A stretch of DNA of 64,000 nucleotides from NCBI RefSeq assembly GCF_000383975.1, contig NZ_KB913017.1, forward strand, positions 1,779,105-1,843,104. The letters are read 5' to 3'. A model generated the notes under the pieces. That model saw only the letters and a list, made by a program, of their open reading frames with translations. It searched no databases and was not told where the DNA came from. Positions 19,951-21,695 of the stretch are shown in pieces. The stretch is from Natronorubrum tibetense GA33 (GTDB lineage: Archaea > Halobacteriota > Halobacteria > Halobacteriales > Natrialbaceae). Position numbers and translations under genes: made by a program. Position 1 is the stretch's first letter; each line of letters starts with the position of its first letter.

Positions 19951-20205
19951 CCGCCGGTGGGTGCGTCGCCGTCGTCTCCTATTTCCGTCGCTGATCGGTG
20001 CGTCGGCCGTCATCTCCGTTTTCCGTCGCACTCGTTGCAGCCCTTCGGCATCGTCTTCGTGGCCGCATCATCGTCCGTTGCACCCGTTTCGAAGCCATTC
20101 ATTTCTTGTGTGTTGCTAGTACTGGATGACCGTTCTGACGGGTTGAATGCCGCAATACTTGCTATTCAGCAGGATTTAATACCGGTGGCGCTCTTAGAGC
20201 CACCA
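19951..20205. promoter_or_regulatory. promoter region of the arginine-rich short ORF
   Basis: TTTAAT at 20175-20180 (inside GGATTTAATACC) lies about 29 bases before the ATG at 20206, the spacing of haloarchaeal leaderless promoters. Between them GGTGGC 20184-20189 and GCCACC 20199-20204 form an inverted repeat that could be an operator. The rest of the interval holds no gene I can support. Confidence 0.5.
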
Positions 20206-20298
20206 ATGAGTCCCGTCGTCGGTACCACGCTCGCCGCGTTCGGTACCGACGGGACCGTCTCCCCGCGGCGACCGCGACGGCGGCGGCCGGGCCTTTGA
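20206..20298 (+). CDS. short arginine-rich ORF, candidate leader peptide before argG
   Basis: A 30-codon ORF, MSPVVGTTLAAFGTDGTVSP followed by RRPRRRRPGL and TGA. Six of the eight codons at 20266-20289 specify arginine (CGG CGA, CGA CGG CGG CGG). It lies 155 bases upstream of argG and the whole arginine cluster. GTCCCGTCG 20210-20218 pairs perfectly with CGACGGGAC 20247-20255 ahead of the arginine run, and CGGGC/GCCCG (20288-20303) forms a hairpin across the stop codon. This is the layout of a leader peptide in bacterial attenuation; no such mechanism is established in archaea. argG also has its own TATA-like element, so it could be an independent small protein. Confidence 0.45.
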   Translation: MSPVVGTTLAAFGTDGTVSPRRPRRRRPGL

Positions 20299-20453
20299 GC
20301 CCGACTACTACTTTACCCCTCGACCCCCGTCCGTGTCAACGTTTCACCGATCCCGAAACTCCACAATTCTCGGTTAGCAGGTGCTCTACCGTTAATTTAC
20401 GCGCACAAAATCAATGTACTTAAGTCGCTCCTGCCGTTTTCCTCGAGTACGAT
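20299..20453 (+). promoter_or_regulatory. argG upstream region
   Basis: GTACTTAAGTC at 20417-20427 could be a TATA box about 30 bases before the argG ATG, giving a short leader. A second AT-rich block (GTTAATTTACG) is at 20391-20401. A transcript from the upstream short ORF could also read into argG. Confidence 0.45.
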
Positions 20454-21695
20454 ATGACACGCGTTGCACTCGCATTCTCGGGTGGGCTGGACACGACCGT
20501 CTGTGTCCCGCTGCTCGAGGAAGAATACGGATACGACGACGTCATCGGCGTCACGGTCGACGTCGGTCAGCCGGCTTCCGAATTCGAGGAAGCTGAAGAA
20601 ACTGCAGAAGCGCTCGGTCTCGAGCACTACGTCGTCGACGCAAAGGAGGAATTTGCACAACTCTGTCTCGACAGCGTCCGCGCGAACGCGACGTACCAGG
20701 GCTATCCGCTCGGTACCGCACTCGCTCGTCCCGTGATCGCTGAGGCGATCCTCGAGGTCGCGGAGGAACAGGGCTGTACCGGCATCGCCCACGGCTGTAC
20801 GGGTAAGGGGAACGACCAGCTCCGTTTCGAAGCCGTCTGGCGCGACTCGGATCTCGAGGTCATCGCCCCCGTGCGCGAACTCGGGCTCACCCGCGAGTGG
20901 GAAAACGAGTACGCCGCGGAGAAGGACCTGCCCGTCGAGGGCGGCGGCGGCGGGAAATGGTCGGTCGACACCAACCTCTGGAGTCGCTCCGTCGAGGGCT
21001 CCGAACTCGAGGATCCGAACTACGTCCCCGGCGAGGAGATCTACAACTGGACGCAGGCCCCAACCGGCGAGACCCAGGAGATCGAGATCTCCTTCGAGAA
21101 GGGTTATCCCGTCGCCGTCGACGGCGTCGAGTACGACCCGATCGAGCTTATCGAGCACTTAAACGGCGTGGCGGGCGCGTACGGCGTCGGCCGCACCGAC
21201 TCGATGGAAGATCGCATGCTCGGCCTGAAGGTTCGCGAGAACTACGAGCACCCGGCCGCGACGACGCTGCTCAACGCCCACGAAGCGCTCGAGGGCCTCG
21301 TCCTCACCCAGGAGGAACGCGAGTTCAAGCAGCTGATCGACCAGCGCTGGTCGAAGAAGGGCTACGAGGGCCTGATCGACGCGCCGCTCGTGAAGGCACT
21401 CGAGGCCTTCATCGACGAGACCCAACAGCGCGTCACCGGAACAGTCACGATCCGCTTCGAGGGCGGCCAGGCCCGCGCAGTGGGTCGCGACAGCAAGTAC
21501 GCCGCCTACTCTGCCGAGCACGCCTCCTTCGACACCGAGACGGTCGGCAAGATCGATCAGGAGGACGCCACGGGCGTCGCGAAGTACCACGGCTTCCAGC
21601 GCCGTCTCGCAAACTCGGTGACGGACGCCGAGGACGCTGAAGACGAGGGAGTCGAACTCGCGACCGACGGCAGCGGAGCTGACGAGGACGAATAA
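20454..21695 (+). CDS. argG: argininosuccinate synthase
   Basis: A 413-residue enzyme that joins citrulline and aspartate using ATP, the penultimate arginine step. The N-terminal ATP pyrophosphatase loop is VALAFSGGLDTTVC; GCTGKGNDQLRFE and the EGGGGGKWSVDTNLW segment are family landmarks, and length is normal. The last 25 residues are a variable acidic tail (EGVELATDGSGADEDE). argH starts two bases after the stop. It heads the cluster argG-argH-lysW-argX-argC-argB-argD-argE-argF. Confidence 0.97.
   Translation: MTRVALAFSGGLDTTVCVPLLEEEYGYDDVIGVTVDVGQPASEFEEAEETAEALGLEHYVVDAKEEFAQLCLDSVRANATYQGYPLGTALARPVIAEAILEVAEEQGCTGIAHGCTGKGNDQLRFEAVWRDSDLEVIAPVRELGLTREWENEYAAEKDLPVEGGGGGKWSVDTNLWSRSVEGSELEDPNYVPGEEIYNWTQAPTGETQEIEISFEKGYPVAVDGVEYDPIELIEHLNGVAGAYGVGRTDSMEDRMLGLKVRENYEHPAATTLLNAHEALEGLVLTQEEREFKQLIDQRWSKKGYEGLIDAPLVKALEAFIDETQQRVTGTVTIRFEGGQARAVGRDSKYAAYSAEHASFDTETVGKIDQEDATGVAKYHGFQRRLANSVTDAEDAEDEGVELATDGSGADEDE

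Follow-up and report, generated by a model that had tools for sequence, protein, structure and literature searches.

What does a 30-codon open reading frame (ORF) that ends in a run of arginine codons do in front of argG? The question is raised by a stretch of 64,000 nt from Natronorubrum tibetense GA33 (contig NZ_KB913017.1, positions 1,779,105 to 1,843,104), referred to here as the window. It carries a haloarchaeal arginine cluster whose first gene, argG, starts at 20454, and the ORF sits within 500 bases upstream of that gene. A first-pass annotation had described the ORF as an arginine-rich leader with a leaderless-type promoter and had likened it to the attenuation leaders of bacteria. 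The features of the locus are listed below in window coordinates.

20175..20181, + strand: TATA box (TTTAATA) of the leader promoter P1, ∼31 nt 5' of the leader start codon
20206..20298, + strand: leader ORF, 30 codons plus TGA, with an ATG start; peptide MSPVVGTTLAAFGTDGTVSPRRPRRRRPGL
20210..20255, + strand: hairpin 1 (GTCCCGTCG...CGACGGGAC), 5' of the arginine run
20263..20283, + strand: arginine run CGG CGA CCG CGA CGG CGG CGG, in the rare codons CGA and CGG
20288..20303, + strand: hairpin 2, CGGGC-CTTTGA-GCCCG, with the stop codon TGA as the 3' end of the loop
20304..20321, + strand: G-free tract, directly 3' of hairpin 2
20372..20388, + strand: element GGTTAGCAGGTGCTCTA (GGTTAGCAGNNGCTCTA), conserved in Natrialbaceae and placed just 5' of P2
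20418..20425, + strand: TATA box ACTTAAGT of P2, the second promoter, which would give argG a leaderless transcript
20454..21695, + strand: argG, argininosuccinate synthase (TIGR00032)

The 30-codon ORF is present at 20206-20298 and has a TATA box 31 nt before its ATG, a spacing which fits a leaderless leader transcript. Of the aligned loci, 93-97% have T at -31/-30. Position 20175, the start given for the feature in the first-pass annotation, is the first base of this TATA box, and the ATG is at 20206. The run had been described as six arginine codons in eight; the six are there, but they span seven codons, and the 3' end of the ORF reads CGG CGA CCG CGA CGG CGG CGG CCG GGC CTT TGA. Both hairpins that had been placed at 20210-20255 and 20288-20303 were found at exactly these coordinates.

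To assess conservation we collected 73 loci from named haloarchaeal genomes, with argG as the query. All 73 of these related argG loci, like the window, have at the same place a short ORF with an arginine run at its end. A core model of 47 nt, covering the end of the run, the stop hairpin and the tract after the hairpin, matched 344 of 391 genomes and 77 of the 86 genera of the class. The window's own genome gave a single match (E 3e-9). Where positions were compared (e.g., G117, G257, G375, G251, and G137), the match lay ∼100-150 nt upstream of argG. Second matches in 16 genomes were rejected as chance; the inspected ones were inside other genes or without leader features. We also read 40 further argG upstream regions from other families, a choice that included genomes without a model match. 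The leader was present in 37 of them, with a GTG start in a few, and absent from three (L133-L135), all from two deep outgroup families. In three Natronorubrum species and Salinadaptatus (L004, L009, L012, and L019) the frame passes through hairpin 2 to a later stop, 76-88 nt before argG, with the run and the hairpin retained; in L117 the stop codon is 12 nt further on. Rfam 15 gave nothing above the gathering score, only a sub-threshold chance match. Conservation in other haloarchaea had been suggested as a check on the arginine run, and the run, hairpin 1 and the stop hairpin are indeed kept across the class. The leader observation is far from chance.

The codons of the run differ sharply from those of the gene behind it. 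Arginine in the runs is encoded by CGA (226), CGG (107), CGC (4), CGT (3), and AGG (2), so that CGA and CGG make up 333 of 342 codons (97%), vs. 129 of 1266 (10%) in the corresponding argG genes (CGC 913, CGT 214, CGG 95, CGA 34; Fisher 4e-221 for the excess). With duplicate runs removed, there were still 285 CGR vs. 12 other arginine codons. The leader is therefore written in codons that the cell otherwise avoids. Rare codons are likewise used in leuL, a bacterial attenuator. Differences in the run between related leaders fall at third codon positions in 377 of 574 cases, and the fifth codon from the stop is arginine in 68 of 69. In the N-terminal part, ahead of the run, the differences favour no codon position. 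This part is variable in sequence, and the leaders of different families differ widely in length. As read from these substitutions, selection is on the arginine codons and leaves the peptide free, which is the leader-peptide pattern.

Hairpin 1 has a z score of -4.0 in the window. At its position, a few bases past the AUG, the mean z over 46 loci was -1.71 (28/46 below -1.5), and the hairpin recurs in other families in unrelated sequences. When the whole leader of 261 nt was treated as a single fold, its stability was not unusual (z -0.87); the signal therefore resides in the local hairpins. A hairpin at the leader end was scored in 108/108 scripted loci, with the stop codon within it in 102; two of the 108 loci (L117 and L140) were scored on the wrong ORF. 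Its stems are compensatory between families (GGGCC/GGCCC, GGCCC/GGGCC, GGGGTC/GACCCC, GGGGC/GCCCC, GGGGCT/AGTCCC, and CGGCC/GGCCG). The covariation count for hairpin 2 in a fixed register was weak (76.6% of cells paired) because the stem register and the loop length shift, and per-locus hairpins were used instead.

The G-free tract after the hairpin has a mean length of 16.8 nt vs. 5.7 nt in shuffles (shuffle maximum 6.9). No U-tract was found directly after hairpin 2 in the aligned loci; the tract is a mix of A, C and T without G and without a T run. T-rich TTTC/TTTTC sites appear only ∼35-60 nt after hairpin 2, and in loci with P2 TTTTC is enriched ∼60 nt downstream (31/60 vs. 15 in shuffles). 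In Haloferax volcanii, termination was reported to reach 95% at T-stretches followed by C and 59% at one hairpin sequence (PMC7237163). A universal antiterminator, in which the run would pair with downstream sequence, was also considered and rejected: the mean z was -0.4 over 74 loci and the pairing is not general. Halosimplex-type loci (L047, L048, L050, L051, L063, and L071) contain two overlapping complementary pairs, CCGCC/GGCGG and GTCGGGT/ACCCGAC, between the leader and the argG start; these pairs are a possible additional switch there.

Is argG transcribed through the leader? The answer depends on the family. A TATA-like element for a leaderless argG transcript (P2), ∼30 nt upstream of the argG start, was found in 60/74 loci and is conserved in the window's family, and for this reason the leader cannot be the sole switch of argG there. 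With two promoters argG has two inputs in that family, only one of which is the leader; P2 is predicted to bypass the leader. The second TATA box is absent in 14/74 loci, including the Haloarculaceae and Halobacterium types, and argG of these loci is therefore predicted to be transcribed through the leader, barring an unrecognised promoter. Several further families were also judged, by reading, to be without P2. In the families that lack P2, only ∼58-140 nt separate the leader stop and the argG start; in the window's family the distance is >140 nt. The element at 20372-20388 is a candidate site at which a regulator may act on P2. A CTATAGGCATCTCTA-like counterpart of this element was seen in Haloferax-like and f7 genomes.

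Leader ORFs were also found for two other amino acids. In most haloarchaea examined, pheS is preceded by an ORF ending in GFGFFFA(R/A/G) or GFGFFFLTA (L148 in the window's own genome, G000:C1 ∼1359.2 kb; L146-L161 and L194-L203). Trp-rich ORFs precede trpS, such as MASTLEWRWRWQ..., WRWRW, WQWRW, and CWRWHASW (L166 in the own genome, G000:C1 ∼1398.4 kb; L163-L165 and L167-L169). Several Trp leaders have complementary CTCTCGAG/CTCGAGAG-like arms on both sides of the Trp codons. Reading of upstream regions gave no His leaders before hisG or hisS, no conserved Arg leader before argS, no Trp leader before trpE, and no Leu, Ile or Val leaders before ilvB; the search therefore does not yield leaders everywhere.

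The sister leaders can be compared with a start-site map of H. volcanii (PMC4983044). Table 2 of that paper lists a uORF on the pheS transcript with 26 aa, a pI of 5.9 and 2772 Da, and a 23-aa uORF before a tryptophan--tRNA ligase gene; for neither transcript does it give another start site at the main gene. In Haloferax-like genomes the ORF ahead of pheS, a Phe leader, has 26 aa, a pI of 5.94 and 2792 Da. From length and pI we infer that it is the mapped H. volcanii pheS uORF, and at least one sister leader would thereby be tied to an observed transcript. The 23-aa uORF probably corresponds to the Trp leader.

We propose that the arginine leader works by ribosome-mediated attenuation, as a leaderless cis-acting ORF that would couple argG to the charged tRNA-Arg for CGA/CGG codons; we put the probability of this reading at roughly 0.7. 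The likeness to bacterial attenuation leaders drawn by the first-pass annotation gains support from the codon choice, the third-position substitutions and the Phe and Trp sister leaders. That only the codons are conserved, and not the peptide, points to the sensing of low charged tRNA, and the sensing half of the mechanism has good support from the sequences. For the output half we infer termination, aCPSF1 factor-dependent termination, or RNA decay.

The P1 transcript would start at the AUG or within a few bases of it, and would present in order hairpin 1 early in the ORF, the CGA/CGG run, the stop-codon hairpin and the G-free tract. Hairpin 1 may slow the polymerase and let the first ribosome catch up. 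When arginyl-tRNA is plentiful, the ribosome would reach the stop codon and depart, hairpin 2 would fold, and the P1 transcript would end early in the G-free/T-rich stretch ahead of argG, or would be cleaved there and lost. When arginyl-tRNA is scarce, the ribosome would wait on a codon of the run. In waiting at the fifth codon from the stop, the most conserved one, its leading edge would cover the hairpin's 5' arm and so keep hairpin 2 from folding, and transcription would go on into argG. The leaders of argG (Arg), pheS (Phe) and trpS (Trp) seem somewhat likely to form a haloarchaeal amino-acid leader class without a U-tract terminator or an antiterminator, an archaeal form of attenuation in which the ribosome's occupancy of the stop-codon hairpin would decide the fate of the transcript.

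The same features could be read as translational or mRNA-stability control, in which a full-length RNA is made and the ribosome position on a uORF-like leader sets argG translation or cleavage. The absence of a U-tract terminator suits such a control, as does the distance of only ∼58-140 nt between the leader stop and the argG start in families without P2, and PMC9031893 reports that the leaderless poly-cysteine sORFs of mycobacteria attenuate downstream genes. However, in the window's family >140 nt separate argG from the leader stop and argG is served by a promoter of its own, and no universal structure masking the argG start was found; we regard this reading as unlikely.

It is very improbable that the locus is a non-coding RNA or DNA element in which base-pairing or protein binding preserves the CGA/CGG repeats and the ORF is a by-product. 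In some Haloarculaceae and Halorubrum loci, TCG-rich sequence downstream could serve as a pairing partner for the CGR repeats (z to -3.2), but this is no general property of the leaders (mean z -0.4). The run is in frame with a promoter-proximal ATG in 69/73 loci tested, Pro, Phe and Leu codons break it up in frame, and in the sister leaders the codons are those for Phe ahead of pheS and for Trp ahead of trpS. Least probable of all is a small basic peptide acting in trans, e.g., in RNA or DNA binding, whose position before argG would be incidental. The run is strongly basic, and related leaders have a common short Ser/Thr-Val stretch ahead of it. The N-terminal part, however, varies in length and sequence without codon-position bias, and a trans-acting peptide would leave unexplained the rare synonymous codons, the stop-codon hairpin, and the fixed place before argG without any other copy. 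Ribosome-mediated attenuation remains our preferred reading.

Leader-peptide attenuation is a textbook bacterial mechanism. Our search, which covered the open-access literature, yielded no description of an archaeal amino-acid leader peptide. If the proposal is true, the coupling of transcription and translation in archaea is close enough to serve regulation, and a class-wide Arg leader with Phe and Trp sisters would make this coupling directly testable in Haloferax volcanii. Annotators, for their part, gain a set of real, conserved short genes overlooked by pipelines.

Among known systems, the bacterial trpL, leuL and pheM attenuators are alike in having a short ORF ahead of the biosynthesis or synthetase gene for an amino acid, a run of codons for that amino acid at the end of the ORF, and hairpins before and after the codon run; pheM and the haloarchaeal Phe leader before pheS are a direct parallel. 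The haloarchaeal leader differs in being archaeal and leaderless, in having its stop codon inside the downstream hairpin, and in having a G-free tract in place of a U-tract, with no conserved antiterminator. From its sequence features, then, the arginine leader would work like a bacterial attenuator but misses two classical features, the U-tract and the antiterminator. The fungal arginine attenuator peptide (arg-2/CPA1 uORF) is a conserved peptide that stalls the ribosome when arginine is high. It is likewise an upstream ORF controlling an arginine gene, but there the peptide sequence is conserved, and in the haloarchaeal leader only the codons are.

The uORFs in long 5'-UTRs of H. volcanii (PMC4983044) resemble the leaders in that uORF transcripts are mapped before pheS and the tryptophan--tRNA ligase gene; they differ in that all listed pI values are low and argG is absent, and the paper, as far as consulted, takes up neither codon content nor attenuation. 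The mycobacterial poly-cysteine sORFs (Canestrari et al., 2020, as cited in PMC9031893) are also leaderless, carry contiguous cognate codons and attenuate downstream genes, but they are bacterial and use cysteine rather than arginine. No conserved terminator hairpin was found for the mycobacterial poly-Cys leaders (PMC1262725), in contrast to the argG leaders, where the hairpin is universal.
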